64,000 nt of DNA from Ruminococcus sp. YE71 (GTDB lineage: Bacteria > Bacillota > Clostridia > Oscillospirales > Ruminococcaceae), in assembly GCF_900119155.1 (NCBI RefSeq), contig NZ_FPIR01000002.1:186001-250000 (forward strand), in the 5' to 3' direction. The notes below the pieces were generated by a model, which ran no database searches, was not told the origin of the DNA, and worked only from the letters and a program-made list of their open reading frames with translations. The translations under genes were made by a program, and so were the position numbers. Positions 15,675-32,381 of the stretch are shown one piece after another (position 1 is the first letter of the stretch; each line of letters begins with the position of its first letter).

Positions 15675-15691
15675 TGGATATTCCTCCTGAA

Positions 15692-15772
15692 AAAAAGATA
15701 AAGATGATCGATAATTGATGAAAGACAGAATAAAATCTCTTATCTCTTATCTCTCATCTATTATCTGTATTA
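15692..15772. repeat. Purine/pyrimidine-armed intergenic repeat (paaK-iorB gap)
   Basis: A purine-rich 5' arm (AAAAAAAGATAAAGATGATC) is followed by a pyrimidine-rich arm of repeated TCTCTTATC units. It resembles the tracts at 16740-16842, 27160-27208, 43436-43491 and 62198-62292. Confidence 0.5.
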
Positions 15773-16345: not shown

Positions 16346-16351
16346 TATATA

Positions 16352-16525
16352 TTACTCCTTGTTTATTTCATTGTCTTGTTTTGCTTTCAGCTCCGCCTTT
16401 TCCTCGTCTGTCATGTAGAGGTCGGGGCGCACGCGCCTGAGAATAAATCCCACCGCCGCGATGACGAGCGCTATCAGTATAAACGGCACGCCCATGACAA
16501 CGGCGGCTTGAAGAAGGTTATTCAT
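16352..16525 (-). CDS. Small single-pass membrane protein
   Basis: A 57-residue protein with one hydrophobic helix at about residues 5-28 (AAVVMGVPFILIALVIAAVGF), then RRVRP and a charged tail. Its ATG at 16525 overlaps the end of the upstream zinc-knuckle gene by 8 nt, and it ends 7 nt before iorB. The coupling suggests it is a real gene, perhaps holding a complex at the membrane. Function unknown. Confidence 0.6.
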   Translation of the reverse strand: MNNLLQAAVVMGVPFILIALVIAAVGFILRRVRPDLYMTDEEKAELKAKQDNEINKE

Positions 16526-16724
16526 GCTTATTCCGCTGCTTTTCGCTGAGCAGGAAGAATTCGAGCTTGCGGCACTTCGGGCAGACAAGTATCATCACGG
16601 GCAGATACCCCGACATGATATTGTTAAGGTCCGGCAGCAGCCAGCTTGCCCCTCCGAGCTGTATTCTTTGGTTAAAAAGGTGCTTCATCGGGACTCCGCA
16701 CCGCAGGCAGTTGATCTTCTTCAT
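16518..16724 (-). CDS. Small two-knuckle protein between iorA and iorB
   Basis: A 68-residue protein with CLRCG near the N-terminus and CPKC after a hydrophobic middle, which could bind one zinc. Similar small zinc-ribbon proteins occur widely in Clostridia and have no known role. It begins 119 nt after iorA ends and overlaps the next small gene. Confidence 0.6.
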   Translation of the reverse strand: MKKINCLRCGVPMKHLFNQRIQLGGASWLLPDLNNIMSGYLPVMILVCPKCRKLEFFLLSEKQRNKHE

Positions 16725-16739
16725 TTCGTGTTATTCTCC

Positions 16740-16842
16740 TTGATCTATAAGAGATCAGAACCCCTGACCGTTTAACGCCGGTTTTGCCGACGGTCGGAAT
16801 GTGACCTCTTTCTTATTTCTTAACTCTTATTTCTTCTTTATA
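16740..16842. repeat. Purine/pyrimidine-armed intergenic repeat (after iorA)
   Basis: A GC-rich core (TGACCG ... CGGTCG) is followed by a run of TTTCTTATTTCT-type units. It lies between iorA and the small zinc-knuckle gene. Confidence 0.5.
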
Positions 16843-18567
16843 TCAGATGATCGCGTTGAGCTTGCAAAGCTCGGTGCAGATGCCGCAGCCTACGCACTGT
16901 GTATGGTCGATAACGCTCTTCTTGTTCTTGATCGAGATAGCGGGGCAGCCGACTTTCAGGCACTGCTTGCAGCCTACGCACTTGTCCTCGTCAACGTGCA
17001 GCGGAGGATTGTGCTTGACATACTTCAGCAGAGCACACGGACGGCGCGAGATGATAACAGACGGCTCGTCCTTTGCGAGCTCCTCCTCGATGACCTTCTT
17101 AGTCTCTGCCATGTGGTAGGGGTCAACTACGCGGACGCTCCTGATGCCGATAGCCTTGCAGAGCTCTTCGAGGTTTACAGCCGCAGCAGGGTCGCCCTTG
17201 AGGTTCTTGCCTGTGGTCGGGTTCTGCTGGTGACCTGTCATGCCCGTGATGGAGTTGTCGAGGATGATGGTGGTGGAGTTGGAAGCGTTGTAGGCAACGT
17301 TCACGAGACCTGTCATACCGCTGTGCATGAAGGTCGAGTCGCCGATAACAGCAACGCTCTTCTTCTCGGCGTCAGCGCCGAGAGCCTTGTTGTAGCCGTG
17401 AAGTGCGCTGATGGATGCGCCCATGCAGATGGTGGTGTCCATAGCGCAGAGCGGAGCTGCCGAACCGAGCGTGTAGCAGCCGATGTCACCCGAAACGTAA
17501 ACGCCCAGCTGCGACAGGCAGTAGAACAGACCTCTGTGAGGACATCCGGCGCACATTACAGGCGGACGAACAGGCACGTCCTCGCCGAAGGTCATGACTT
17601 CGGCAGTCTCGCCGAGGATAGCCTTGCGGACGATCGACTGGGATATCTCGCCGATGCCCGAGAATACCTCGCGGCCGATAACGCTTACGCCGTTTTTCTT
17701 GCAGTGGGTCTCGATGATGTCGTCAAGCTCTTCGATGACGTATACCTTGCCGCACTTCTCGGCGAAATCGCGGATGATGTTGACGGGCAGGGGATTTACC
17801 ATACCGAGCTTCAAGTAGCTCGCCTTGTCGCCGAGGGCTTCCTTAGCGTAAACGTAGCAGTCGCCTGCCGCGATGATACCGATGGAAGTATCGTTGTACT
17901 CAACGCGGTTGAGGGGGCTGGTCTCGGCGTATTCGGCAGCGTCGCGGAGCTTCTGCTCAACGACGGGGTGACGGCGCTTTGCGTTGCCCGGCACCATAAC
18001 GAACTTGCCGGGGTTCTTCTCGTAGGGCTTAGCGTCGGGAACGACTCTGTCGAGCAGTTCCACCGACGACTGGGAGTGTGCGATACGGGTAGTCATGCGC
18101 ACGATAACGGGGCAGTCGAACTTCTCGCTCAGCTCGAACGCGGTCTTGGTGAAGTCCTTGCATTCCTGCGAGTCGGAGGGCTCGACCATCAGCACCTTGG
18201 AAGCGATAGCGTGGTGACGGGAGTCCTGCTCGTTCTGGGAGGAGTGCATACCCGGGTCGTCGGCAACGCAAACGACCATGCCGCCGTTAACGCCCGTATA
18301 TCCTGCGGTGTAGAGGGGGTCGGCGGCAACGTTGAGACCGACGTGCTTCATTCCGCAGAAGCTTCTTTTACCTGCTATGGACGCACCGAGAGCCGCTTCC
18401 ATAGCGACCTTCTCATTGGGAGCCCATTCAGCGTACATTTCATCGTATTTTGCGGCAAACTCAGTGACCTCGGTCGAGGGAGTTCCCGGATAGGAGGAAA
18501 CGAATTCGCAGCCTGCTTCGTACAGTCCGCGTGCAAATGCTTCGTTTCCGAGCATAAGTTTTTTCAT
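16843..18567 (-). CDS. iorA: Indolepyruvate:ferredoxin oxidoreductase, alpha subunit
   Basis: The 574-residue catalytic subunit. The N-terminal pyrimidine-binding domain carries SSYPGTPSTEV. The thiamine-diphosphate domain carries MCAGCPHRGLFY and SGDIGCYTLG, then GDSTFMHSGM. The C-terminus is a 2x4Fe-4S ferredoxin domain with CVGCKQCLKVGCP and CVGCGICTELC. The protein starts MKKLMLGNEAFARG with AAGGAAGG upstream. It is the first gene of the minus-strand aromatic-acid operon and has a clear promoter. The reaction links aryl pyruvate + CoA + oxidised ferredoxin with aryl-acetyl-CoA + CO2 + reduced ferredoxin. Confidence 0.95.
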   Translation of the reverse strand: MKKLMLGNEAFARGLYEAGCEFVSSYPGTPSTEVTEFAAKYDEMYAEWAPNEKVAMEAALGASIAGKRSFCGMKHVGLNVAADPLYTAGYTGVNGGMVVCVADDPGMHSSQNEQDSRHHAIASKVLMVEPSDSQECKDFTKTAFELSEKFDCPVIVRMTTRIAHSQSSVELLDRVVPDAKPYEKNPGKFVMVPGNAKRRHPVVEQKLRDAAEYAETSPLNRVEYNDTSIGIIAAGDCYVYAKEALGDKASYLKLGMVNPLPVNIIRDFAEKCGKVYVIEELDDIIETHCKKNGVSVIGREVFSGIGEISQSIVRKAILGETAEVMTFGEDVPVRPPVMCAGCPHRGLFYCLSQLGVYVSGDIGCYTLGSAAPLCAMDTTICMGASISALHGYNKALGADAEKKSVAVIGDSTFMHSGMTGLVNVAYNASNSTTIILDNSITGMTGHQQNPTTGKNLKGDPAAAVNLEELCKAIGIRSVRVVDPYHMAETKKVIEEELAKDEPSVIISRRPCALLKYVKHNPPLHVDEDKCVGCKQCLKVGCPAISIKNKKSVIDHTQCVGCGICTELCKLNAII

Positions 18568-18770: not shown

Positions 18771-18799
18771 TTGACTTTGGGTGTGGGATATGCTATAAT
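18771..18799 (+). promoter_or_regulatory. Sigma-A promoter for the regulator-hydE-nitrogenase-like cluster
   Basis: TTGACT (18771-18776), 17 nt, TATAAT (18794-18799), 32 nt before the regulator gene. It is the only good promoter I see before the long plus-strand gene run. Confidence 0.82.
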
Positions 18800-18831
18800 A
18801 TAAGTGTAATAACAGCAAAGGAGTGTGCCTT

Positions 18832-19080
18832 ATGGAAACACGTATAGCCGTTATTGCTATAATCGTAAAAGACCCCGAATCGGCGGCGGACATAAACGCC
18901 CTGCTCCACGAATACGACAAGTTCGTGATTGGCAGGATGGGCGTCCCCTACCGAACTAAGGGCGTGAGCGTCATAAGCATCGCTATCGACGCTCCGCAGG
19001 ACAAGATAAGCTCTCTGACGGGCAGGATAGGCAGACTCAGCGGCGTCAGCGCCAAAACGGTCTATGCACCTGCCGGATGA
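18832..19080 (+). CDS. TM1266-like iron-only hydrogenase system regulator
   Basis: An 82-residue protein with a ferredoxin-like beta-alpha-beta fold pattern (ETRIAVIAIIVKDPESAADINALL ... GVSVISIAIDAP). It matches the small NikR-C/ACT-like family usually annotated as a putative regulator of [FeFe]-hydrogenase maturation genes. It has no DNA-binding domain, so it may act as a ligand-binding subunit. AAAGGAG lies 7 nt before the ATG at 18832. Its usual partner genes are hydE, hydF and hydG; here only hydE follows. Confidence 0.8.
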   Translation: METRIAVIAIIVKDPESAADINALLHEYDKFVIGRMGVPYRTKGVSVISIAIDAPQDKISSLTGRIGRLSGVSAKTVYAPAG

Positions 19081-19233: not shown

Positions 19234-20289
19234 ATGATGAACGAAATACTGAAAGGTCTTATCGACAAGCTCGACCGCGAAAAGAAACTCCCGCACGGGG
19301 AGTGGGTGACGCTGTTTGACGGTTTCACGGACGAGGAACGCGAGTACGCGGCTTCGGTCGCAAGAAAGATCGCAGACGAAAAATACGGCAAGAAGATCTA
19401 TATAAGAGGTATAGTCGAATTCTCCAACTACTGCAAGAACGACTGCCTTTACTGCGGTATCCGCCGCTCGAACAGGAACGCTCAGCGCTACCGCCTGACC
19501 GACGACGAGATACTCGCCTGCTGTGACGAGGGCTACGAGACGGGTTTCCGCACCTTCGTGTTGCAGAGCGGCGAAGACCCTGCCTACACCACCGACAGGC
19601 TCGTGGAGATAGTCCGCAGGATAAAGGCGGCGCATCCCGACTGTGCGGTGACGCTGTCGCTGGGTGAGCTGGAGCGCGAAGATCTGGCGAGGCTCCGTGA
19701 GGCGGGGGCGGACAGATACCTGCTCCGACACGAGACAGCCACAAAGTGCCACTACGAACAGCTCCACCCCGACTTCATGTCCTTCGAGCACCGCATGAAA
19801 TGTCTGCAAGACCTGAAAGAGCTGGGCTATCAGACGGGTACGGGCATGATGATCGGCGCACCCTTCGCGAATTCGGACACCCTCGCTTCGGATCTGGAGT
19901 TCCTCTGCGAGTTCAAACCCCACATGGTGGGGACGGGGCCGTTCCTGCCCCATAAGGACACGCCGTTCCGTGACGAGCCGAAGGGTTCATATGAACTGAC
20001 GCTGTTCGTGCTGAGCCTTGTGCGCATCATGCTGCCGAACGTGCTGCTGCCAGCCACCACGGCTCTCGGGACGATCAGACCCAACGGCAGGGAACAGGGA
20101 GTGCTCCACGGGGCGAACGTCATCATGCCGAACCTTTCGCCGACGGCTGTGCGGAAGAAGTATATGCTTTACGACAACAAGATCTGCACCGAGGATTCCA
20201 CCACCGAATGCCGCTTCTGCTTGCAGCGGCGCATGGAGTCGATAGGTTACGAGATCGAGATCACGAGAGGAGATTACTGCGATGATTAA
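19234..20289 (+). CDS. hydE: [FeFe]-hydrogenase maturase-type radical SAM protein HydE
   Basis: A 351-residue radical SAM enzyme. The SAM cluster motif is CKNDCLYC (C-x3-C-x2-C) after RGIVEFSNYC, and the next GIRRSN segment is typical of HydE. A C-terminal C-x7-C-x2-C triad matches the optional second cluster site of HydE. In known systems HydE acts on the cysteine-bound Fe(CO)2CN synthon during assembly of the hydrogenase H-cluster. GAGGTG precedes ATG 19234; ATG 19237 is an alternative. Its stop overlaps the start of the nitrogenase-like reductase gene by 8 nt, and no hydF, hydG or hydrogenase gene is present, so it may serve the nitrogenase-like system instead of, or as well as, hydrogenase. 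Confidence 0.9.
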   Translation: MMNEILKGLIDKLDREKKLPHGEWVTLFDGFTDEEREYAASVARKIADEKYGKKIYIRGIVEFSNYCKNDCLYCGIRRSNRNAQRYRLTDDEILACCDEGYETGFRTFVLQSGEDPAYTTDRLVEIVRRIKAAHPDCAVTLSLGELEREDLARLREAGADRYLLRHETATKCHYEQLHPDFMSFEHRMKCLQDLKELGYQTGTGMMIGAPFANSDTLASDLEFLCEFKPHMVGTGPFLPHKDTPFRDEPKGSYELTLFVLSLVRIMLPNVLLPATTALGTIRPNGREQGVLHGANVIMPNLSPTAVRKKYMLYDNKICTEDSTTECRFCLQRRMESIGYEIEITRGDYCDD

Positions 20290-21037
20290 AATAGCGATCT
20301 ACGGCAAGGGCGGTATCGGAAAATCCACCGTTTCGTCAAACGTTTCCGCGGCACTGGCTCAGAAGGGCATGAAGGTCATGCAGATAGGCTGCGACCCGAA
20401 GGCCGACTCGACTTCGCTGCTGCACGGCGGCAAGCGCATCCCCACTGTTCTCGACCTCACCCGTCAGAAGGGCAATAAGCTCACCCTCGAAGAGGTGGTC
20501 TTTGAGGGCGAGTTCGGCGTGAAGTGCGTCGAAGCGGGCGGCCCCGTTCCGGGTATCGGGTGTGCGGGACGCGGCATCATCAACGCCCTCGAAACGCTCA
20601 AAAAGCTCGGCGCTTATGAGGTCTATCAGCCTGACGTTGTGATATACGATGTGCTGGGTGACGTTGTGTGCGGCGGCTTCTCGATGCCCATGAGAAAGGG
20701 CTACGCAGACAAGGTGTTCGTCGTGACCAGCGGCGAGAAGATGTCGAGATATGCGGCGGCGAATATCTGCATGGCGGTGGAGAACTTCAAGGGCAGGGGC
20801 TATGCTTCCCTCGGCGGCATCATCCTCAACCGACGCGGCGTGAGGGGCGAGAACGAGGGCACGGAAGAACTGGCGGCTGACTTCAACACCACCGTCATCG
20901 GTTCGCTCGACCGCAGCGAGGAGATAACCTTCGCAGAGGAGAGGGGCAAGCCCGTTTCGGTGGTCTGTCCAGAAAGCCGCGCCGTGACACAGCTCGACGC
21001 TATCGCTCAGGCTCTGCTCGACAGCTTTAAGGAGTGA
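20282..21037 (+). CDS. Nitrogenase iron protein-like reductase 1
   Basis: A 251-residue NifH/BchL-family ATPase expected to pass electrons to its partner component-1 complex using ATP hydrolysis. The P-loop is GKGGIGKST (residues 9-17), and [11 protein letters not shown] is the switch-proximal segment. Both 4Fe-4S ligand cysteines are present, in [10 protein letters not shown] and [11 protein letters not shown]. It is shorter than true NifH (about 270-297). AGAGGAG lies before the start, which overlaps the end of hydE by 8 nt. The D-like gene follows after 4 nt. True nitrogen fixation is unlikely from the partner sequences. Confidence 0.9.
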   Translation: MIKIAIYGKGGIGKSTVSSNVSAALAQKGMKVMQIGCDPKADSTSLLHGGKRIPTVLDLTRQKGNKLTLEEVVFEGEFGVKCVEAGGPVPGIGCAGRGIINALETLKKLGAYEVYQPDVVIYDVLGDVVCGGFSMPMRKGYADKVFVVTSGEKMSRYAAANICMAVENFKGRGYASLGGIILNRRGVRGENEGTEELAADFNTTVIGSLDRSEEITFAEERGKPVSVVCPESRAVTQLDAIAQALLDSFKE

Positions 21038-21041
21038 CAGT

Positions 21042-22358
21042 ATGCTTAAAGATATACGCTATGAAAAGCCCCCCTGCAAGCAGATCGCTGACACCGACCG
21101 CGACTGTTTCTTCGAGTCGGGGCTTGAATACAACACCCCTGCAAGGGGTATGTGGAACATCGTCCACTCGGGTATGCTGCTCCCCGAAGCGCACGAGATA
21201 TTCTGCTGTGCGCAGGGCTGTCTGAGGGGCGTTATCCTCACGGCGGCGGAGATGCTGACCCTTGACCGCATGAGCTGGATATCCGTTTCGGAAGAGGATA
21301 TGTTCGACGGCACGATCGAGACCGACGTTATCGACGGCGTGACCGAGATAATCGAAAAGCTCGGCAAGAGACCGCCTGTGGTGCTGCTGTACCTGAGCTG
21401 CATCCACCTGTTCGCGGGCGTGGATTTTGAGGCGATAATCAACGAGCTTCATGAGCGTTTCCCCGACATATGGTTCTCCGACTGCTACATGACCCCGACC
21501 ATGCGCACCACCGTTTCGCCCGTTGCGAAGATGGCGGCACAGCTCTACGACGCGCTGAAGCCGATGCCACTCGACCCGAAGTCGGTGAACATCATCGGCA
21601 ACGACCGCGCCACCGACGAGGGTTCGGAGCTTGTGAAGACCATCCGCGGAGCAGGCTTTACGCTCCGTGACATAACTCTCTGCAAGACCTTTGACGAGTA
21701 CCTTGAAATGGCGAAGGGCTCGCTGAATATCACATACATCCCGACGGCTGTCCTCGCAGGCGGCACGCTTGAAGAGCGGTTCGGGGCAAGGCATCTTTAC
21801 CTGCCCAACAGCTTCGTTTATGACACCATCGAGGAAAACCACCGCACCCTCTGTGAGGCTCTCGGCATCGGTCAGACAGACCTCTCGGCGGAAAGAGCCG
21901 CCGCAGATTCGGCGCTCGAAGCGGCTCACGAGGTCATCGGCGACACGGCTGTGGCGATAGATTTCACGGCGGTCACCCGACCCTTTGAGCTTGCCGAACT
22001 GCTCATCGCGCACGGCTTCAACGTCAGGTACGTTATCGCTGACGGCGCGGGTGAGGAGGGCGACGCTTTCGAACGTCTGAAAGCCGCACGCCCCGACCTT
22101 GAGATATACGCCGCCGCCAACGTCAATATGCTGAATATGCGCTATGAGCCCCATGAGAAGGTGCTGGCTGTGGGTCAGAAGGCGGCTTACTACTTCGCCA
22201 CCGACAACTTCGTGAATATCATCCTGAACGGCGGTTATTACGGCTATTCGGGTATCGTGAAGCTCGCGGAGCTGATGACTGACGCATATCGGAACGAGAA
22301 GGACAGAAAGCGCGTCATAAGCCTGAAAGGCTACGGCTGTGCGAGCTGTCTTGCGTAA
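21042..22358 (+). CDS. Nitrogenase component 1-like (NifD-like) subunit, module 1
   Basis: A 438-residue protein of the nitrogenase component-1/oxidoreductase superfamily. Three cysteines align by eye with the P-cluster-side ligands of NifD: DRDCFFESG (residue about 24), CCAQGCLRGV and LLYLSCIHLF. The FeMo-cofactor Cys and His ligands of true NifD are not recognisable. The first two Rossmann-like domains can be followed through NIIGNDRATDEGSEL and later GHFINVRYV-type strands. It ends with GYGCASCLA, an extra Cys pair at the C-terminus. The gene sits between its reductase and K-like gene with 4 and 12-nt gaps. Substrate unknown. Confidence 0.82.
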   Translation: MLKDIRYEKPPCKQIADTDRDCFFESGLEYNTPARGMWNIVHSGMLLPEAHEIFCCAQGCLRGVILTAAEMLTLDRMSWISVSEEDMFDGTIETDVIDGVTEIIEKLGKRPPVVLLYLSCIHLFAGVDFEAIINELHERFPDIWFSDCYMTPTMRTTVSPVAKMAAQLYDALKPMPLDPKSVNIIGNDRATDEGSELVKTIRGAGFTLRDITLCKTFDEYLEMAKGSLNITYIPTAVLAGGTLEERFGARHLYLPNSFVYDTIEENHRTLCEALGIGQTDLSAERAAADSALEAAHEVIGDTAVAIDFTAVTRPFELAELLIAHGFNVRYVIADGAGEEGDAFERLKAARPDLEIYAAANVNMLNMRYEPHEKVLAVGQKAAYYFATDNFVNIILNGGYYGYSGIVKLAELMTDAYRNEKDRKRVISLKGYGCASCLA

Positions 22359-22370
22359 GGAGGGCAGGCT

Positions 22371-23495
22371 ATGAAGAACGTTTCAAAGATAATACCCTGC
22401 TACTCGGCTGACACGGCAGGGGTCTGTTCGGCGCTGTACGAGCTGGGCGGAATGGTGGTCACCCACGACGCTTCGGGGTGCAATTCCACCTACGCCACCC
22501 ACGACGAGCCGCGCTGGTACGACATCCAGTCGAAAATGTATATTTCGGCGCTGACCGAAATGGACGCCATCATGGGCAACGACGAAAAGCTCATTTCCGA
22601 CATCGTGTCGGCGGCGAATGACCAGAAGCCCGAGTTCATCGCGGTGTGCGGTTCGCCGATGCCGATGATGACGGGCGTGGATTTCGACGCGATAGCCGCC
22701 GAGATAGAATCCCGCACCGATATCCCGACCTTCGGGATGCACACCAACGGTACGCACTCCTACATCGAGGGGGCGTCGGAAGCGTTTGACTACATCGTGA
22801 AGCAGTACGTCCGTGAGTGTCCGAAGACCGAGGGCTCTGGCGTGAACATCATCGGCATGACCCCCCTCGACTTCAAGTGGCGCGGCACGATGGACGCGGT
22901 GAAAGGCTGGCTCGCAGAGAACGGTCTGGAGTACGTTTCCTGCATTGCGATGGGAAGTTCTCTTGACGAGATACGCCGTGCGGCATCCGCGAGCGTGAAC
23001 CTTGTGGTGAGCAGCTCGGGACTTGCGGCGGCGAAGTATATGGAAGAGCGTTTCGGGATACCCTACGTTTGCGGCGTTCCCTATGGCAGGGCTTACGCGA
23101 AGGCGTTTGCGGAACAGCTGAAGGGTGAAAACGGCGGCGCTGTCCGCACCGCTGACGATGCCGACACGGTCATCATCGGCGAGGGGATAGGTTCGGTATC
23201 GCTGGCGGCGGCGCTGTCTGCCGATCTCGGCATCAGTGCAAAGGTCATCTGTCCGCTGACCTGCGGAGATGGCATCCTTGCCGACACCGATCTCGACCTT
23301 TACGCTGAGGAGGACATCGAAGCGGCGCTTTCGGACATGGATCCGAAAACGGTCATCGCCGACCCTCTGTACAAATACATCGTCCCCGACGGTACGCGGT
23401 TCATCGAACTGCCGCATTTTGCCTTCTCGGGAAGATGCTTCGAGAGGGACATGAAAGACCTCATAAATACCGACATCAAGGAGTATTTTAAATGA
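22371..23495 (+). CDS. Nitrogenase component 1-like (NifK-like) subunit, module 1
   Basis: A 374-residue partner of the preceding D-like protein. Cysteines in [16 protein letters not shown], in HDASGCNST and in [13 protein letters not shown] match the spacing of the three cluster ligands of NifK-type subunits, so this module could hold a full interface cluster. The motif HDEPRWYDI follows the second site. It is shorter than NifK. The stop overlaps the start of the second reductase gene by 4 nt (ATGA), which joins the two modules. Confidence 0.82.
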
Positions 23496-24250
23496 TAAAA
23501 CTTGCACTCTACGGCAAGGGCGGCATAGGCAAATCGACCTGTACCGCGAATCTTGCCGCCGCGTTTGCGATGCTGGGCAAGCGCGTGATACAGATAGGCT
23601 GCGACCCGAAAGCCGACTCGACCATAAATCTGCTGGGCGGCGAACCTTTGCAGCCTGTTATGGATTACCTGCGCGAGCATGACGACGACCCGAACAGCAT
23701 CGGGGAAATATCGAAGATAGGCTTCGGGGATATCCTCTGCATCGAGACGGGCGGTCCTACCCCCGGGCTCGGATGCGCGGGTCGAGGGATAATCACCACC
23801 TTCAACCTTCTCGAACAGCTGGAGCTTTTCGAGAAGCACAAGCCCGACGTGGTGCTGTACGACGTCCTCGGGGACGTGGTCTGCGGAGGGTTCGCAGCGC
23901 CGATACGTGAGGGCTACGCCGAGCAGGTGCTCATCGTCACCTCGGGCGAGAAGATGGCGCTCTACGCCGCGAACAACATCAACAGCGCGGTGAAGAACTT
24001 CGAGGACAGAAGCTACGCGAAAGTCCGCGGCGTCATCATGAACCGCCGCAACGTCGAGAACGAGGAAGAGAAGGTCCGCGCCTTCGCTGAGGGCGCAGGG
24101 CTTGAAGTCGCCGCAGACATCCCGCGCTCGGCTGACATCATCAAGTACGAGGACATGGGCAAGACGGTCATCGAGGGCGACCCCGAATGTGAGACCTCGA
24201 AGCGGTTCTTCGCGCTGGCACAGAAACTTATCGACGAGGAAAAAGTATGA
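23492..24250 (+). CDS. Nitrogenase iron protein-like reductase 2
   Basis: A 252-residue second NifH-like ATPase, clearly paralogous to the first: P-loop [20 protein letters not shown], and cluster cysteines in [10 protein letters not shown] and [11 protein letters not shown]. It differs in the region after GG(E)[16 protein letters not shown], the part that contacts component 1, so each reductase may be matched to its own partner. It is coupled by 4-nt overlaps on both sides. Confidence 0.9.
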
Positions 24251-25545
24251 ACAAGGGCTTTTACGTAACTGCCGCGGAGCTTGCCGCATCGGGGTTCGAG
24301 AACATCCCCGACGAGCTGGTCTCCTCGAAGCACATGATATATTCATCCCCCGCGACCCTCGACTTCAACTCGCCGGGTGCCAAGGGCTTCGGCGTGAAGC
24401 GTGCGGGACTGGTCGTGCCCGAGTCGGTGATGCTGCTGGTGGCTCCGGGCTGCTGCGGCCGAAACACCGCGCTGCTCAACGAGCTGGGCTACAACGACAA
24501 GTTCTTTTACCTGATGCTGGACGACACCGACATCGTGACGGGACGCTACCTCAAGAAGATACCGAAGGCCTGCGCCGAGATAGTCGAAGAGCTCGACTAC
24601 ACGCCGTCTGCTATCATGATATGTGTGACCTGCGTGGACGCGCTGCTCGGCACCGACATGGAGCGCGTCTGTCGAAGCTGTGCCGAGACAAGCGGCGTGC
24701 CCTGCGTGCCTGCGTATATGTACGCGCTCACGCGTGAAAAGCGCCTGCCGCCGATGGGTCTTGCGAGAAAGTCGATATATTCGCTGCTCGAACCGCAGAA
24801 GCGACGCTCCAACGAGTGCGCTCTGATGGGCTTTTTCTCGGCGCTGGAGGACGGGTGCGAGATATACGAGCTGCTCCGCCGCGCGGGCATCAAAAAGATA
24901 CACGAGATAGGCCGCTGCAAGACCTTCGAGGAGTACAGGCAGATCTCCCGTGCGAATTTCGCGCTGGTGCTCAACTCGGAAGCGAGGGCGGCGGCACAGG
25001 ACATGGAAAAGCGGCTCGGCATCCCGTTCATCGAGCTGACGCGGCTGTACAGGCTCGGGAAGATACACAACCAGTACAAGCTGCTGGGTCAGGCGATAGG
25101 CGCGGAGTTCGACGACAGCGAGTTCTACGACGAGGCGTTCGACACCGTGACCGCGTTTAAGGCGAAGCACGGCGAGGTGAGCTTCGCGGTGGGCGAGTGC
25201 ATGAACGCGGACAGCTTCGAGCTGGCGCTGGCGCTCTGCGAGTACGGTTTCAGGGTGGCGGAGATATACGGCACTATCGGCGAGCGCAACTTCCTGTTCC
25301 TCAGAAAGCTCGCCGAAGTCTCGCCCGAGACACGCGTATACTCGAACCTGTCGCCGACGATGATGGGTTACGAGCGCGACTGCGAGATAAACGCCTGCAT
25401 CGGCACCGACGCGGCGTACTACCACAAAGACCTGCCGTCGGTGAGCTGGAGCGGCGAGGAACAGCCCTTCGGCTACAGGGCTGTGACCCTGCTCTTTGAA
25501 CAGCTCGACACGGCGCTTACCGAGGGAAAGGCGGTGAAGATATGA
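24247..25545 (+). CDS. Nitrogenase component 1-like (NifD-like) subunit, module 2
   Basis: A 432-residue D-like paralogue. The cysteines of VAPGCCGRN and [13 protein letters not shown] align with the second and third ligand positions of module 1, but the first position (DRDC in module 1) falls in a segment without Cys ([15 protein letters not shown]). It has many other cysteines, including [14 protein letters not shown]. This suggests a different cluster ligation, or a scaffold role like NifEN relative to NifDK; both are inferences. It overlaps both neighbours by 4 nt. Confidence 0.78.
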
Positions 25546-26573
25546 GCACGTTACTGAAACACATCTCCCCCCTCGCCCCCGACGATTCGGGAGCCTGCTC
25601 GGTGCTGTACGAGATGGGCGGCATCGTGGTCATCTGTGACGCGGGCGGCTGTGCAGGAAACGTCTGCGGCTTCGACGAGCCGAGGTGGCACTGCAAGCGT
25701 TCGGCGCTGTTCAGCGCGGGGCTCCGCGACATGGACGCTATCCTCGGGCGCGACGACAGGCTGGTGGAAAAGCTCGTGAAGGTGACGGGGCAGGTGGAGG
25801 CGGACTTCACCGCGATAATCGGCACCCCCGTGCCTGCGGTCATCGCCACCGACTACCACGCGCTGGAACGCATGAGCGAGCGGCGTTCGGGACTGCCCTG
25901 CATCGCGCTCCCGACCGACGGCACGCGGCTGTACGACTACGGCGAGGAGCTTGCCTACACCGAACTGTTCAGGCGGTTCGCGGAGGAGGGCATCGAGCCG
26001 AAGAAGGGAAAACTCGGCATCATCGGTGCGACTCCGCTGAACACGGGGCTGATGTTCGCCGAAAAGCTCATCGCCGCAGGAAAGGCTATGGGCTTTGACG
26101 AGGTGGTCTGCTTCGGTCTGGACAGCGGACTTGACGAGGTGAAACGCGCCGCCGAGTGTGAGCGTCTGCTGGTCATCTCGCCCTCGGGCGTGAAGGCGGC
26201 GGAGTACCTGAACAAGCGTTTCGGAACGCCGTTCGAGGCGGGCTATCCCTGTCTGCCCGAAGCCGTCTGCGAGAGTGCGGACGGACTGTCGGGGAAGAAA
26301 GTGCTTGTGATAAATCAGCAGTTCGCGGCGAACACTCTGCGCGAGAAGCTGAAGGGCTGTGAGGTCGATTGTGCGACCTGGTTCGCCCTTGACAAGAGAT
26401 ACGCGCATGAAAACGATTTCCGAATAAAGGACGAGGGCACGCTCCGCGAGCGCATAGAGCAGGGCGGCTACGATGTGATCTTCGCAGACCGCGACCTGTG
26501 GCGTGCGATGAAGTACTTCGGCGGCGAGCTGATTGATTTTCCGCATTATGCGGTAAGTGCGACGCTTGCTTAA
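25542..26573 (+). CDS. Nitrogenase component 1-like (NifK-like) subunit, module 2
   Basis: A 343-residue K-like paralogue, the shortest of the four component-1-like proteins. GACSVLYEMGG and DAGGCAGNVCGFDEPRW keep two cysteine sites seen in the module-1 K protein. The third, VCGSPMP in module 1, is IIGTPVP here and so lacks the Cys, and the N-terminal PCYS is ISPLAP. An extra Cys follows the second site. It is the last of the tightly coupled set; the next gene begins 21 nt later. Confidence 0.78.
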   Translation: MSTLLKHISPLAPDDSGACSVLYEMGGIVVICDAGGCAGNVCGFDEPRWHCKRSALFSAGLRDMDAILGRDDRLVEKLVKVTGQVEADFTAIIGTPVPAVIATDYHALERMSERRSGLPCIALPTDGTRLYDYGEELAYTELFRRFAEEGIEPKKGKLGIIGATPLNTGLMFAEKLIAAGKAMGFDEVVCFGLDSGLDEVKRAAECERLLVISPSGVKAAEYLNKRFGTPFEAGYPCLPEAVCESADGLSGKKVLVINQQFAANTLREKLKGCEVDCATWFALDKRYAHENDFRIKDEGTLRERIEQGGYDVIFADRDLWRAMKYFGGELIDFPHYAVSATLA

Positions 26574-26594: not shown

Positions 26595-27152
26595 ATGGTT
26601 CTCACCTACGGTTATCTGCAAATGCTTTCGGCGGTACAAGATGAAAAGGTCACTGCTGACGAAATAAAAATGATCGAAAAGAAAAGCGGAGAAAAGACTC
26701 TGAAAATATTCTTAACTGCTGTCATGGTCATAAGCCTTATCGCAGGCATTTATACGCTGCTTGCCGAGAAAGAATTTCCTGTCTTTTACAGCCTTGTATT
26801 TGCATTTTTCGGTATGTTGTCAGCACCGTCATCCAAACGCCGTGAAACATCTGCCTGCTATGCAGCGGTAGTTGACAAGACCGTCCGATGTGCTAATTCC
26901 TCGGGAAAATGCTCTGTTTATCTTCCGTATGAAAAAACCGTTGAAGCAGGAACTTACAAGCACAGATATACACTGTTTGAGACCGTTTATGACTATTACT
27001 ACTGCACTGTCGAGATAAACGGAGAGATATATGAAAACGTATGCTGTCTGAGCAGGGATTTCCCGAAAATTGAGACAGGAGACAGAGTGATAGTCGCAAA
27101 TGAGGACAGCTATTTTTGTCCTGTTGTATATAAAATAGGTAAGAAAGAATAG
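26595..27152 (+). CDS. Membrane protein, unknown, between the nitrogenase-like and hyp genes
   Basis: I do not recognise this 185-residue protein. Two hydrophobic helices lie at about residues 35-54 and 62-78, after a charged N-terminus, and a C-terminal domain of about 100 residues follows with alternating strands, many Tyr, and Cys pairs (RCANSSGKCSV, YYYCTVEI, ENVCCLS). The DNA is more AT-rich than the flanking genes. TTAGGAG lies 11 nt upstream. Its place inside the gene run suggests co-transcription rather than a known role. Confidence 0.65.
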   Translation: MVLTYGYLQMLSAVQDEKVTADEIKMIEKKSGEKTLKIFLTAVMVISLIAGIYTLLAEKEFPVFYSLVFAFFGMLSAPSSKRRETSACYAAVVDKTVRCANSSGKCSVYLPYEKTVEAGTYKHRYTLFETVYDYYYCTVEINGEIYENVCCLSRDFPKIETGDRVIVANEDSYFCPVVYKIGKKE

Positions 27153-27208: not shown

Positions 27209-27228
27209 TTAACAAGGAGGTGCGTGAT

Positions 27229-29553
27229 TTGGCGTTAAAGACCGTTCGCATGAAAATTTTCGGCATAGTTCAGGGCGTGGGATTTCGTCCGTTTATGGCT
27301 GTTTCGGCTGAAAAAACAGGCGTTTGCGGCACGGTGGCGAACAAGGGCTCGTATGTCGAGGCGATAGTGCAGGGGAGCGGCGAGCAGATAGACCGCTACG
27401 CCGACATCGTGCGCAATTCGCCGCCCGAACGCTCGGTGATACTGGGGCTGGACATCGACCCCTGCGAGGACGGTGAGTTCCCCGAATTTGCGGATTTTCG
27501 CATAATCGAGAGCAAGAAGGAGTACGGCGATATTTTCGTTTCGCCCGACATCGCCACCTGCGACAAGTGCCGCACCGAGCTGTTCGATAAGAACGACAGG
27601 CGCTATCTCCACCCGTTCATCAACTGCACCCAGTGCGGTCCGCGGCTGACGATCCTCGACACCATGCCCTACGACCGCGTGCGCACCAGCATGGGCGAGT
27701 TCCCCATGTGCTCCGAGTGCGACAGCGAATATCACGACCCCGCCACCCGACGCTACGACGCTCAGCCCGTCTGCTGCAACGACTGCGGTCCGAGGGTTCG
27801 GATACTCGGCACCGACATTTTCGACGGCGACGCGATTCGGCTGATACGGCGCGAGATAATGGCTGGCAAGGTCGCGGCGGTCAAGGGCATCGGAGGTTTC
27901 CATCTTTGCTGCGACGCTCACAATGCGGCGGCAGTGGCAAGGCTCCGCGAGCTGAAACGCCGCCCGATGAAGCCATTCGCGGTAATGATGCGCGACTTTG
28001 AGACCACCGAGCGCGAGTGCTTCGTCGCCGAGGGTCAGCGCGAGTACCTCACGGGCTGGCAGAAGCCGATACTTCTGCTCGAACGCCGCCCCGACAGCAC
28101 CCTCTCGGAGCAGATAGCCCCCGACAACGACACGGTGGGCGTGATGCTGCCATACGCGCCCGTGCAGATGCTGCTGTTCGACTACCCCGACGGGCTTGAC
28201 TTCACCGACTGTCTCGTCATGACCAGCGGCAACGCGAGGGGCGCACCCATCTGCCGCAGTGACGAGGATGCACTCGCCGAGATACCGGGCTTCTGCGACT
28301 ATATCCTCACCCACGACCGAAAGATACGCATCCGCGCTGACGACTCGGTCTGCGACTGGCTGTTCGGGAAGCCGTATATGATACGCCGTTCGAGGGGCTT
28401 TGCGCCGCTGCCCGTAATGCTTCACGGCGGCGAGGGTCGGCAGGCGATAGGCATCGGCGGCGAGCTGAAAAACACCTTCTGCATCGCGCGGAACGGTCTG
28501 CTGTACGCGTCGCCCTACGTGGGCGACATGGCGGACATCCGCACGGTGAGGGCGCTGAAAGAGTCGGTTCACCGCATGATCGGTCTGCTGGAAGCAGAGC
28601 CCGAGGTCATCGTCTGCGACACGCACCCGATGTACAACACGGTGACGGTGGCGGAGGAGCTTGCCGAAGAGATGGGCTTGCCCCTCGTGAAGATTCAGCA
28701 CCATTTCGCGCACATCCTGTCCTGCATGGCTGAGAACCGCCTTGCCCCCGACAGCCGCGTGATAGGCGTGAGCTTCGACGGCACGGGTTACGGCGACGAC
28801 GGCACGATCTGGGGCGGCGAACTGATGATCTGCGGCTACGGCAGCTACGAGCGCGTCGGGAGCGTGGCGCCCTTCATGCAGTGCGGCGGCGACCTCTCCT
28901 CGAAGGAGGGCTGGCGCATCGCCGTTCAGCTGATTCGGCAGGGGTTCGGCGAGGACGCGCAGGCGGTCTGCGAACGGCTCGGGCTGTGCGACGCAAAGAC
29001 CTTCAAGATACAGTCGGCGATGGCTGACAAGAGGGTCAACAGCGTGCTTTCGACCAGCTGCGGACGCATTTTCGACGCGGTGTCGGCGATACTCGGCATC
29101 AGGCAGGCTTCGACATTCGAGGGCGAGGCTTCGACCGCGCTGATGACCGCCGCCGAGCGCTACGTAAAACAAAACGGTGAAACGAAGCTGACGCTGCCGA
29201 TAGAAATGACTGCCGACACCGAGTCGGGCAGCGGCTTCATCACCCTCGGCAGTTCGGCACTCGCGGCTGAGATAGCGCGGCGCTTCATGGACGGCGGCGA
29301 CGCGGGACAGCTCGCCTTCGAGTTCCATGCGGCGCTTTCCGAGCTGATTCGCATCGCCTGCATCGAGCTGCGCGAAAAGCACGGACTGAACGAGGTCGCA
29401 CTCAGCGGCGGCGTTTTCCAGAACCGTCTGCTGGTGAAGCTGACAAAAGCCGCCCTCGAAAAGGCAGGCTTCACCGTTCTGCTCCACACCCTCATCCCGC
29501 CCAACGACGGCGGCATCTGCGTGGGTCAGGCAGCGCACGGGGTCCTGAAATAA
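27229..29553 (+). CDS. hypF: Carbamoyltransferase HypF
   Basis: HypF makes the thiocarboxamide on HypE that becomes the cyanide ligands of the Fe(CN)2CO unit. The 774-residue protein has the N-terminal acylphosphatase domain (FGIVQGVGFRPF), two CxxC zinc fingers with CDKC/CTQC and CSEC/CNDC, a YrdC-like domain, and a C-terminal Kae1-like carbamoyltransferase domain with IQHHFAH and SFDGTGYGDDG. The TTG at 27229 has AGGAGG 8 nt upstream; the GTG at 27220 overlaps that site. A 31-nt gap leads to hypC. Confidence 0.95.
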   Translation: MALKTVRMKIFGIVQGVGFRPFMAVSAEKTGVCGTVANKGSYVEAIVQGSGEQIDRYADIVRNSPPERSVILGLDIDPCEDGEFPEFADFRIIESKKEYGDIFVSPDIATCDKCRTELFDKNDRRYLHPFINCTQCGPRLTILDTMPYDRVRTSMGEFPMCSECDSEYHDPATRRYDAQPVCCNDCGPRVRILGTDIFDGDAIRLIRREIMAGKVAAVKGIGGFHLCCDAHNAAAVARLRELKRRPMKPFAVMMRDFETTERECFVAEGQREYLTGWQKPILLLERRPDSTLSEQIAPDNDTVGVMLPYAPVQMLLFDYPDGLDFTDCLVMTSGNARGAPICRSDEDALAEIPGFCDYILTHDRKIRIRADDSVCDWLFGKPYMIRRSRGFAPLPVMLHGGEGRQAIGIGGELKNTFCIARNGLLYASPYVGDMADIRTVRALKESVHRMIGLLEAEPEVIVCDTHPMYNTVTVAEELAEEMGLPLVKIQHHFAHILSCMAENRLAPDSRVIGVSFDGTGYGDDGTIWGGELMICGYGSYERVGSVAPFMQCGGDLSSKEGWRIAVQLIRQGFGEDAQAVCERLGLCDAKTFKIQSAMADKRVNSVLSTSCGRIFDAVSAILGIRQASTFEGEASTALMTAAERYVKQNGETKLTLPIEMTADTESGSGFITLGSSALAAEIARRFMDGGDAGQLAFEFHAALSELIRIACIELREKHGLNEVALSGGVFQNRLLVKLTKAALEKAGFTVLLHTLIPPNDGGICVGQAAHGVLK

Positions 29554-29584
29554 TAGATAAAAAATACTACGGAGGTATATTGTT

Positions 29585-29794
29585 ATGTGTGTTGGATTAT
29601 CTGCAAGAGTTGTTAATGTTAAGGACGGAACGGCTGTTATTGATGCGAGCGGTGCAAAGCGCGAGGTCAGCGCGGGCATCCTTGAGGATCTGGAGCCGGG
29701 CGATTTCGTGATGGTACACGCAGGCGTGGCTATCGCGAAGATCACGCAGGACGAGGCCGAAGAAGCCGACGAGCTGATGGAGGATCTGCTATGA
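29585..29794 (+). CDS. hypC: Hydrogenase assembly chaperone HypC
   Basis: A 69-residue protein that begins MCVGLSARV; Cys2 is the residue known to hold the Fe unit together with HypD. The small OB-fold pattern (VVNVKDGTAVIDASG ... GDFVMVHAGVAIAKI) is complete. It ends with a short acidic helix. GGAGG precedes the ATG, and its stop overlaps hypD by 4 nt. Confidence 0.95.
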   Translation: MCVGLSARVVNVKDGTAVIDASGAKREVSAGILEDLEPGDFVMVHAGVAIAKITQDEAEEADELMEDLL

Positions 29795-30843
29795 CCGAGA
29801 GCGTAAAAAAAGCAAGAGACATTATCACGGGTTACAGCGGCAGACCGCTGCGCATCATGGAGGTCTGCGGCACGCACACCCATGAGATATTCCGCATCGG
29901 ACTGAGAAAGCTGCTGCCCGAAAGCATCGACCTTATCTCGGGCCCGGGATGTCCCGTGTGCGTAACGGCGGTGGGCTTCATCGACGAGGCGTGCTGGCTG
30001 GCGCTGGAAAAGGGATGTCTTATATGCACCTTCGGCGACCTCATCCGCGTGCCGGGCACCGAGATGAGCCTTGCGGGGGCGAGGGCAAAGGGCGCGGACA
30101 TCCGTCCCGTTTACTCGCCGCTCGACGCGGTGGAGATAGCCAAGGAAAACCCCGACAGACAGGTTGTTTTCCTCGCGGTCGGGTTTGAGACGACTACCCC
30201 GTCGGCGTGTCTCGCGGCTGAGCAGGCTAAGGCGGCAGGGCTGAAAAACTTCTCGCTGCTGACTGCGAACAAGACCATGCCGAACGCCTACAATGCGCTG
30301 GTGGGCAGCGCGGACGCGTTCCTCTATCCCGGTCATGTGAACGCCATCACGGGAAATTCCGCCTGCATAAAGCTGTGCGAGGAGAAGGGCGTGTCGGGCG
30401 TTGTGGCAGGATTCACGGCGAGCGAACTCATCACGGCGATGGCGGTGACTGTGCGTCTGCTTGAAAAGGGCGAGCCGTTCTTCCGCAACTGCTACACCCG
30501 CGTCGTGAAGGACGAGGGCAACAAGTCGGCGATGGAGCTGATGGAGCGCGTTATGGAGCCGTGCGACAGCGAGTGGCGCGGACTTGGGCTGATACCCATG
30601 TCGGGCATGAAGCTCAGAGCCGAGTACGCCGATTACGACGCTCGCCTGAAATACGCGATGCCCGAGATAAAGGGCAGACCGAACCCCGCCTGCCGCTGCG
30701 GCGACGTTCTGCAAGGCAAGTGCAAGCCGTCAGACTGCAAGGTATTCGGCAAGGGCTGCACACCGCTCCACCCGGTCGGCGCGTGCATGGTGTCGGATGA
30801 AGGGGCTTGTGCGGCGTACTATCAGTACAGCGAGATAGAATAA
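29791..30843 (+). CDS. hypD: Fe(CN)2CO assembly scaffold HypD
   Basis: A 350-residue iron-sulphur scaffold that, with HypC, assembles Fe(CN)2CO. Conserved segments are EVCGTHTHEIFRIG, GPGCPVCVTA and VAVGFETTTPSA. The C-terminal cysteine cluster (CRCGDVLQGKCKPSDC, GKGCTPLHPVGAC) holds the 4Fe-4S cluster and redox cysteines. It overlaps hypC by 4 nt. In usual hyp operons hypE follows directly; here a GNAT gene lies between. Confidence 0.95.
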   Translation: MTESVKKARDIITGYSGRPLRIMEVCGTHTHEIFRIGLRKLLPESIDLISGPGCPVCVTAVGFIDEACWLALEKGCLICTFGDLIRVPGTEMSLAGARAKGADIRPVYSPLDAVEIAKENPDRQVVFLAVGFETTTPSACLAAEQAKAAGLKNFSLLTANKTMPNAYNALVGSADAFLYPGHVNAITGNSACIKLCEEKGVSGVVAGFTASELITAMAVTVRLLEKGEPFFRNCYTRVVKDEGNKSAMELMERVMEPCDSEWRGLGLIPMSGMKLRAEYADYDARLKYAMPEIKGRPNPACRCGDVLQGKCKPSDCKVFGKGCTPLHPVGACMVSDEGACAAYYQYSEIE

Positions 30844-30883
30844 AGAAAACATGATAAATCGGGATTTAGAGGTGTAATTACAA

Positions 30884-31336
30884 TTGGAAGTAATCAGCTT
30901 TTATGAAAACGAAAGGCAAAGGCATTGGCTTGATGAAATCGGAAAAAGTGACTGGAGCGCCGGAGCATACCTATATCAACTGTTAAGTGATGGCACCTTT
31001 TTTAATACTGTGGGTGAAGGCTCTAAACTGCTTTTGCTTACGGACGAAGATAAACTGATTTCTTTCTGTACATTCGCAAAGAAAGACGAAATTCTATCAA
31101 CAGACTATTCCCCTTGGTGCGGATTTATATATACTTTCCCACAATATCGGGGGCATAGGTATATTGGACTGCTGTTTCAGAAAATTGAATCTCTGGCTAA
31201 AGAATATAATATACCTAAAATATATTTATCAACAGATCACATTGGTCTATATGAAAAATACGGATTTGAGTATATAACGCAAATGGAAAGCATTTACGGT
31301 GGAGTGTCAAGAGTATATGTAAAACAGATCAAATGA
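30884..31336 (+). CDS. GNAT-family acetyltransferase inserted between hypD and hypE
   Basis: A 150-residue protein with the GNAT pattern: strands LLLLTDEDKLISFCTF, the acetyl-CoA-binding turn FPQYRGHRYIGLLF (Q/R-x-x-G-x-G/A variant RGHRYIG) and the C-terminal DHIGLYEKYGFEYI. Substrate unknown. The likely start is TTG at 30884 with GAGGTG about 10 nt upstream. The gene is AT-rich compared with hypD and hypE, which suggests a later insertion into the operon. Confidence 0.8.
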   Translation: MEVISFYENERQRHWLDEIGKSDWSAGAYLYQLLSDGTFFNTVGEGSKLLLLTDEDKLISFCTFAKKDEILSTDYSPWCGFIYTFPQYRGHRYIGLLFQKIESLAKEYNIPKIYLSTDHIGLYEKYGFEYITQMESIYGGVSRVYVKQIK

Positions 31337-31373
31337 TAAATTCTGATCTATCTTAAAAACGGAGGAAAAAACA

Positions 31374-32381
31374 ATGTCAAACAATACAGTAACTTTAGCT
31401 CACGGTGCGGGCGGAAAGCAGACAAGTGAACTTATCGAGCGTGTGTTCAAGGCACACTTTGACAGTCCCGAATTTACCGCCGATGATGCGGCAGTGCTTC
31501 CTGCGATAAGCGGCAGGCTTGCCATGACCACTGACGGATTCATCGTTTCGCCCTGGAAATTCAACGGCGGAAACATCGGAAAGCTGTCTATCTGCGGAAC
31601 GGTCAACGACCTGTCCTGCATGGGTGCAAAGCCGCTCTACATGACCTGCGGATTCGTTATCGAGGAGGGTTTTCCCCTCGACGACCTGGAGCAGATCGCC
31701 GCTGCGATGGAAAAGACCGCCGCTGAGGTGGGCGTGCGCATCGTCGCAGGCGACACCAAGGTGACGGGCAAGGGTCAGTGCGACGGCGTGTTCATCAACA
31801 CCACCGGTGTCGGGCAGATCATGGAGAATGCCCACACTTCGGGCAGTCTCGCGAAGCCCGGGGACGCGGTCATCGTGACGGGCGACGTGGGCAGGCACGG
31901 CTGCACCATCCTTATCGCGCGCGACGACTACGGCATCGAGTCGGACGTTGACAGCGACTGCGCACCGCTGTGGCACACTGTCGAAAGTATGTTCGAGGTC
32001 ACGAACGACATACACGTTATCCGCGACGCAACACGCGGCGGCGTTGGTACGGTGCTTTACGAGATCGCGTCGCAGAGCAGTGTCGGCATCACCCTCGACC
32101 GCGAGGCTATACCTGTTGACGACCGTGTGAAGGGCGTCTGCGGAATGCTGGGACTTGAGCCGCTGTATCTCGCCTGCGAGGGAAGGCTGGTCATTTTCGC
32201 GCCTGCCGAGCACGCGGACGCGCTGGTGGCGAAGCTCCGCGAGGGCAAGTACTCGGCAAATGCGGCGGTCATTGGGCACGTCACCGCGGACAATGTCGGC
32301 AAGGTCATCATGGAGACCGAGATCGGCACGCAGACCATGCTCCCGCAGCCGAAGGGCGAGCTCCTGCCGAGGATCTGCTGA
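31374..32381 (+). CDS. hypE: Carbamoyl dehydratase HypE
   Basis: A 335-residue PurM-like ATPase that dehydrates the HypF-made carbamoyl group to thiocyanate. It has the N-terminal LAHGAGGKQTSELIERVF, the metal-nucleotide segment NDLSCMGAKPLYMT, RDATRGGVGTVLYEIA, and the C-terminal PRIC, whose terminal Cys carries the cyanide. All essential features are therefore present. GGAGG precedes the ATG. It is the last gene of the plus-strand run and is followed by repeat DNA and a bidirectional terminator. Confidence 0.95.
   Translation: MSNNTVTLAHGAGGKQTSELIERVFKAHFDSPEFTADDAAVLPAISGRLAMTTDGFIVSPWKFNGGNIGKLSICGTVNDLSCMGAKPLYMTCGFVIEEGFPLDDLEQIAAAMEKTAAEVGVRIVAGDTKVTGKGQCDGVFINTTGVGQIMENAHTSGSLAKPGDAVIVTGDVGRHGCTILIARDDYGIESDVDSDCAPLWHTVESMFEVTNDIHVIRDATRGGVGTVLYEIASQSSVGITLDREAIPVDDRVKGVCGMLGLEPLYLACEGRLVIFAPAEHADALVAKLREGKYSANAAVIGHVTADNVGKVIMETEIGTQTMLPQPKGELLPRIC

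Follow-up and report, generated by a model that had tools for sequence, protein, structure and literature searches.

A Nitrogenase-Like, Hyp-Containing Operon of Ruminococcus sp. YE71 as a Probable HydG-Independent Route for [FeFe]-Hydrogenase Maturation

The stretch of DNA analyzed here (the window, 64,000 nucleotides of contig NZ_FPIR01000002.1 of Ruminococcus sp. YE71) carries an operon combining hydrogenase maturation genes with two nitrogenase-like modules. On the + strand, a TM1266-family gene and hydE are followed by H1D1K1 and H2D2K2, each composed of a NifH-like gene (H) and two component 1-like genes (D and K), and then by a 185-amino-acid open reading frame (ORF), hypF, hypC, hypD, a GNAT acetyltransferase gene, and hypE. 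All the CO and CN ligands of [FeFe]-hydrogenases are usually ascribed to HydG. With good confidence, the operon can be regarded as a HydG-independent maturation route for the [2Fe] subsite of these enzymes, in which its products would replace HydG. Its features are as follows.

18771–18799, + strand: strong sigma-70-like promoter directly upstream of the operon, TTGACT-17-TATAAT with TG before the -10 element (predicted solely from its agreement with the consensus, at 11 of 12 positions).
18823–19080, + strand: TM1266-family putative regulator of iron-only hydrogenase systems (TIGR03959, 114 bits against a cut-off of 61; PF21699).
19234–20289, + strand: HydE, radical S-adenosylmethionine (SAM) H-cluster maturase (TIGR03956, 542 bits against a cut-off of 255; CX3CX2C motif YCKNDCLYC).
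20282–21037, + strand: H1, NifH-like ATP-dependent reductase (PF00142, 8e-86; P-loop and both [4Fe-4S] cysteines).
21042–22358, + strand: D1, nitrogenase component 1-like (PF00148, 6e-20; conserved Cys56, Cys60, Cys120, and Cys148).
22371–23495, + strand: K1, component 1-like partner (PF00148, 1e-38; invariant [17 protein letters not shown]).
23492–24250, + strand: H2, second NifH-like reductase (PF00142, 1e-85; 4-base overlap with K1).
24247–25545, + strand: D2, component 1-like (PF00148, 3e-23; conserved Cys69, 70, 109, 126, 129, 142, 191, and 224).
25542–26573, + strand: K2, component 1-like partner of D2 (PF00148, 3e-16; conserved Cys32, 37, 42, and 120).
26595–27152, + strand: 185-amino-acid ORF, family not recognized (no Pfam or NCBIfam match; absent from related loci).
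27220–29553, + strand: HypF, carbamoyltransferase, first half of cyanide synthesis (TIGR00143, 726 bits against a cut-off of 466).
29585–29794, + strand: HypC, chaperone/carrier (TIGR00074, 60.7 bits against a cut-off of 48).
29791–30843, + strand: HypD, [4Fe-4S] scaffold for Fe(CN)2CO (TIGR00075, 412 bits against a cut-off of 193).
30884–31336, + strand: GNAT acetyltransferase, inserted (PF00583; not conserved in relatives).
31374–32381, + strand: HypE, thiocyanate-forming dehydratase with C-terminal PRIC (TIGR02124, 420 bits against a cut-off of 252).

Most adjacent genes of the operon overlap or sit a few tens of bases apart. This also holds for the two modules, which follow hydE as overlapping or closely spaced genes (20282–26573). 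The four hyp genes (27220–32381) are intact and all on the + strand, and the HydE, HypC, HypD, HypE, HypF, and TM1266 assignments all lie above curated family cut-offs. The 185-amino-acid ORF is probably outside the system. No RNA element was found by Rfam between 15 and 36 kb of the window. The composition of the operon recurs with kept gene order in dozens of species, far beyond chance; the observation is real, widespread, and under selection.

Judged by its sequences, the HypFCDE set is complete and catalytically intact at every residue examined. The C-terminal PRIC of HypE is kept in 60 of 60 relatives, Cys2 and His45 of HypC in 77 of 77, Cys26, Cys54, and Cys57 of HypD in 73 of 73, and the zinc-finger cysteines of HypF in 76 of 76. 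The usual client of these proteins is missing: the whole window genome (G000; 4.07 Mb, 99.96% complete) has no match to the [NiFe] large subunit (PF00374), and nothing above the cut-off for hypB (best score 26 bits). Among 198 genomes of the same family (the family sample), hypD occurs in 17. Eight of these carry tandem H-D-K modules, with the hyp genes in the same locus in seven and on separate contigs in the eighth (G178), and none of the eight has PF00374 or hypB above cut-off; a NiFe-type large subunit is present in each of the remaining nine. In the HypD tree, the module-linked and NiFe-linked sets are separated with high support, and one group joins the module-linked HypD of Bacillota, Lentisphaerota, and Spirochaetota.

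These results bear on a preliminary description of the locus, made from the window's sequence. It reported hypF-hypC-hypD-hypE after nitrogenase-like genes on one strand, which is borne out by intact genes that all score over their cut-offs. Its reading, made to depend on the absence of a NiFe large subunit and hypB from the genome and on the co-occurrence of the hyp genes with the modules, survives both comparisons: neither gene exceeds its cut-off, and all eight genomes of this hypD clade have tandem modules and no NiFe enzyme, as opposed to the nine other hypD genomes, all of which have one. Its statement that hypFCDE occur without hypB or any hydrogenase holds for hypB and the NiFe large subunit, but not for [FeFe]-hydrogenases, which are encoded (four PF02906 matches, including A6 and B1 enzymes).

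Two of the four matches to this [FeFe]-hydrogenase domain in the window genome could be assigned to a group: an NADH-dependent group A6 enzyme (841 bits against a cut-off of 765), which keeps the H-cluster motifs TSCCPGW, IPCTAKKFE, and EIMACPGGC, and a group B1 enzyme (588 bits against 450), whose motifs are also intact. R. albus 7, a relative of R. albus strains included here, uses [FeFe]-hydrogenases (PMC6776011). The operon hydE is the single hydE copy of the genome, and no HydG match exceeds the cut-off in it, the best being a ThiH-like protein of 178 bits. Many relatives encode HydF within the operon (TIGR03918, 550 bits).

The absence of HydG is shared by nearly all genomes carrying a module, gut and rumen bacteria among them. 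In the family sample, all 16 module genomes (8 double-module, 8 single-module) have HydE and [FeFe]-hydrogenases and lack HydG, while the module is found in none of the 87 HydG genomes. Only two other family genomes have HydE and lack HydG, and they are 55% and 75% complete. Among the HydE-containing family genomes, the exclusion between module and HydG gives a Fisher p of 1e-16, a test that, like the other Fisher tests on this exclusion, ignores relatedness. A further sample of 50 module genomes, reached via K1 loci, includes 49 without HydG, among them C. ljungdahlii, C. luticellarii, Ruminococcus albus 8 and KH2T6, Lentisphaerota, and one spirochaete (R. albus KH2T6 appears identical to G159 of the family sample). 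Together, these two main surveys cover 66 module genomes. In a phylum sample (398 genomes, of which 213 have HydG), HydG is lacking in 10 of 10 genomes with a HydE/F- or Hyp-linked module. HydG and the module are also swapped within three genera (G000 and G035 versus G143; G071 versus G163; G093 versus G180). Such within-genus swaps, together with the cross-phylum spread, constitute a better argument than the Fisher tests.

Gene order points in the same direction. HydG loci are arranged as TM1266-HydE-HydG-HydF (L082, L083, L086, and L089), or TM1266-HydE-HydG in G143, which belongs to the window's genus, and module loci as TM1266(-HydF)-HydE-H1D1K1; the module, therefore, often occupies the place of HydG. 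HydG-linked and module-linked HydE are intermixed in the HydE tree, which suits a shared HydE function. The most likely destination of the product is the H-cluster, given that the operon includes TM1266, HydE, and often HydF, that [FeFe]-hydrogenases occur alongside it, and that 65 of the 66 module genomes have no HydG.

Broader relatives of K1 do occur beside HydG in the phylum sample: seven with E values from 1e-71 to 1e-108, and two of three weak ones (about 1e-26). At first sight these break the rule, but their loci contain no HydE, HydF, or Hyp, and each one that was put on the tree lies apart from the K1 clade, which has a support of 100*. Six loci of the same sample (L238, L240, L241, L243, L244, and L245) present related H-D-K genes with FecBCDE genes and without HydE or HydF, in genomes that possess HydG.

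The H-D-K proteins themselves fall under the cut-off of every characterized nitrogenase-like family tested. H1 and H2 are NifH-like (PF00142, with the P-loop and the [4Fe-4S] cysteines), and score 303 and 297 bits against a CfbC cut-off of 402, 189 and 195 bits against a BchL cut-off of 345, and 186 and 197 bits against a BchX cut-off of 331. The D and K proteins are component 1-like. In alignments, the cysteine that binds the iron–molybdenum cofactor of nitrogenase (FeMoco; alpha Cys275) is missing in both D proteins: D2 has Asn/Ser where nitrogenase has CHRS, and D1 has no Cys at this position. Among solved structures, NifE, which is a cofactor scaffold, comes first or close to first for the D1, K1, and D2 profiles; the nearest PDB sequences are NifE for D1 and nitrogenase alpha/NifE for D2. 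The predicted folds of D1 and D2 match component 1 (nitrogenase, and NifEN for D1); these models, with a mean predicted local distance difference test (pLDDT) score of 77 and 81, confirm the nitrogenase fold only. In three relatives (L237, L247, and L248, from G565, G391, and G471), D2 and K2 are apparently fused in single open frames of 794–876 amino acids, one of which seems to be interrupted by an in-frame stop; the fusion speaks for a D2K2 complex. Six more PF00148 proteins are encoded on contigs C15, C25, and C30 of the window genome, with one pair about 2 kb from a group B1 [FeFe]-hydrogenase; these are probably nif/anf-type nitrogenase genes.

Two forms of the module can be told apart. 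K1/D1 relatives occur at 112 loci, 78 of which contain Hyp without a Fec importer, and 18 a Fec importer without Hyp or module 2; Hyp and the importer are found together in none, and most of the remaining loci are cut by contig ends. Module 1 (H1D1K1) is, thus, the constant core, and module 2 goes with Hyp. In the Fec form, the genes for the importer are interspersed among hydE and H1D1K1. In single-module loci (L057, 1770–2858; L059, 11728–12783; L060, 12268–13320), a Fec-type ATP-binding cassette (ABC) ATPase carries a TM1266 domain as a C-terminal fusion, a hint that TM1266 may sense something connected with the compound taken up. The arrangement of the Hyp form varies: the order is H2D2K2-HypFCDE-H1D1K1 in C. 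ljungdahlii and its relatives (with H2 outside the fetched stretch in C. ljungdahlii), H2D2K2 accompanies HypFCDE in other gene orders (L187 and L195), and module 1 and H2D2K2 plus HypFCDE lie on different contigs in G565, where the company is still kept. Such conserved company in varied arrangements argues for a common function.

A pathway can be proposed in which the H-D-K and Hyp machinery would do the job that HydG does from tyrosine. HypF and HypE would make cyanide from carbamoyl phosphate, and HypC and HypD would assemble an iron unit bearing cyanide and CO, in line with their known roles in cyanide synthesis and in building Fe(CN)2CO, respectively (PMC12134894; PMC9431212). HypC would pass this unit to D2K2, rather than to a [NiFe] large subunit. 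D2K2 and D1K1 would act as scaffolds resembling NifEN, on which the unit would be reduced and remodeled, and its ligands redistributed, with ATP-driven electrons supplied by H2 and H1. D1K1 would then hand a low-valent Fe-CO-CN unit to HydE, from which it would proceed to HydF and finally to apo-HydA; in the known system, HydG gives HydE its Fe(CO)2CN, and HydF delivers the [2Fe] unit (PMC12134894; PMC9431212). H1D1K1 would be the shared core, fed by HypFCDE and H2D2K2, or by the Fec-type importer where there is no Hyp. This chemistry is suggested by the observed gene content, residue conservation, missing HydG, and missing NiFe client, and the specific flow from HypFCDE to D2K2, D1K1, and HydE is likely, if less so than the replacement of HydG itself. 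A wider proposal is tentative: a second, HydG-independent H-cluster biosynthesis may exist that draws a CO/CN-iron unit from the [NiFe]-type Hyp pathway and has it remodeled by an ATP-driven, nitrogenase-like complex, with a sister form importing an iron complex via a dedicated Fec-type transporter, so that the organometallic precursor, or parts of it, may come from the community.

Several points weigh against the replacement of HydG by this pathway. The eight single-module family genomes have neither Hyp nor HydG; Hyp is, therefore, not required in every form, and the source of CO and CN in these genomes is unexplained. In Clostridium thailandense (G200; L192 and L200), the module coexists with a HydG that exceeds the cut-off (683 bits), the sole case among the 50 further genomes, and C. 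drakei and C. scatologenes have been reported to carry HydG beside hypCDEF (PMC9431212). Conversely, some genomes have [FeFe]-hydrogenase genes without HydG, HydE, or the module, so HydG can also be lacking without any link to the H-D-K system. Moreover, Fe(CN)2CO has two cyanides per iron versus one per iron in the H-cluster, which means that ligands must be redistributed, a step with no known precedent. HydF was not found in the window, the rest of the genome not having been searched for it. With C. thailandense, one could ask whether each route supplies its own hydrogenases.

From hypFCDE and hydE, the preliminary description had suggested that a nitrogenase-like machine handles a cofactor with CO/CN-type iron ligands. 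This idea fits everything found, except that the destination is most likely the H-cluster, and not a standalone cofactor on D1K1. The alternative is a new CO/CN-iron cofactor, made by HypFCDE and the nitrogenase-like pairs, that remains bound to D1K1 or D2K2 in a standalone enzyme, with HydE acting on it rather than on the H-cluster. It would agree with the presence of HydE, H-D-K, and Hyp in one operon, with the absence of a receiving NiFe enzyme, and with component 1 homologues usually being enzymes. Nevertheless, it would lead one to expect neither a strict HydG swap, nor linkage to HydF and TM1266, nor [FeFe]-hydrogenases in every family module genome. In addition, as the operon HydE is the only one in the window genome, it must also serve HydA. 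This alternative is disfavored by the HydG swap and is, overall, quite unlikely.

A division of labor, in which HypFCDE alone would do HydG's work of supplying CN and CO, leaving a secondary part (such as keeping iron reduced or repairing damaged H-clusters) to the nitrogenase-like pairs, is very unlikely. It is consistent with HypFCDE keeping every catalytic residue checked, but the single-module genomes without hypD, which also lack HydG, speak against it: the constant partner of HydG loss is, thus, H1D1K1 and not Hyp. No genome with HydE, HydF, and HypFCDE but without NiFe, HydG, and H-D-K was seen.

It is highly improbable that a divergent HydG or a ThiH-like radical SAM protein, as suggested for acetogens (PMC9431212), replaces HydG and that the module is incidental. 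ThiH-like matches of 170–217 bits are present in about 20 of the 50 further module genomes, but about 30 have no match at an E value of 1e-40 or better, and the same proteins stand beside a true HydG in G005, G010, and G143. As most module genomes do not have it and HydG genomes can, the ThiH-like protein was rejected as a general hidden HydG. The view that the hyp genes are left over from a [NiFe]-hydrogenase elsewhere, or kept as spare parts for one, has next to no probability and was rejected: although HypFCDE are known only from [NiFe] maturation, it is contradicted already by the missing large subunit (no PF00374 match in the eight genomes), as well as by the separate Hyp clade, the fully conserved active-site residues, and an operon order kept across phyla.

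The system proposed here can be compared with known ones. With the HydE-HydF-HydG system, it shares HydE, the TM1266 factor, often HydF, the locus position, and the client enzymes, but the module loci do not have HydG, and contain H1D1K1 with either H2D2K2-HypFCDE or the Fec importer instead. With HypABCDEF-dependent [NiFe] maturation, it shares HypF, HypC, HypD, and HypE, with all the catalytic residues examined, but differs in that its genome has no hypB over the cut-off and no NiFe large subunit, and that its HypD forms a separate clade. The likeness to NifEN and NifH lies in the fold, the nearest solved sequences, the NifH-like partner, and a proposed role in maturation rather than catalysis; in contrast to NifEN, the window proteins lack the FeMoco cysteine, and their tandem pairs accompany HydE and Hyp. 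CfbCD, the dark-operative protochlorophyllide and chlorophyllide oxidoreductases (DPOR/COR), methylthio-alkane reductase, and the isethionate system NflHDK are likewise nitrogenase-like two-component reductases. Nevertheless, H1 and H2 score under the CfbC and BchL/X cut-offs, and their neighborhood is that of H-cluster maturation.

Parts of this picture have been described before. Two linked NifHEN-like copies were noted by Dos Santos et al. in 2012 in Coprococcus catus and Dorea longicatena, beside hydrogenase maturation genes, and a role in active-site assembly was suggested (PMC3464626). These pairs very likely belong to the same system, although neither the relation to HydG, nor the existence of two forms, nor the separate clade of Hyp proteins appears in that paper. 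The view that no such system had been described was, hence, nearly right: the relation to HydG had not been noted, but the link to hydrogenase maturation had. Di Leonardo et al. (2022) found acetogens, including C. ljungdahlii, without HydG and with hypCDEF but no hypAB, and left these as two separate, unexplained puzzles (PMC9431212). The main text of a transposon paper on C. autoethanogenum holds no gene-level data on these loci (PMC9004356). No report of a HydG replacement was found in a literature search that did not cover bioRxiv and covered subscription papers sparsely.

If the proposal is true, the H-cluster can be built by another logic, borrowing from [NiFe] maturation and nitrogenase-type reductases. 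In industrial acetogens (such as C. ljungdahlii) and rumen Ruminococcus, this would account both for the [FeFe]-hydrogenases that occur with no HydG and for the hypCDEF set that occurs with no hypAB. It would also give a function to a large uncharacterized nitrogenase-like group (549 K1 relatives in one scan of genome contigs), make the question of where CO comes from under anaerobic conditions testable (PMC12134894), and suggest new parts for hydrogenase production in other hosts.

Two further observations were made. Six genomes (G008, G018, G054, G151, G186, and G057) encode PF02906 proteins without HydE (at 1e-60), HydG, or H-D-K. Upstream of the operon, divergent genes for an indolepyruvate ferredoxin oxidoreductase and a phenylacetate-CoA ligase-like protein occupy 14358–18567 of the window on the - strand, and the indolepyruvate ferredoxin oxidoreductase gene stays near the module in some relatives (L049 and L234).

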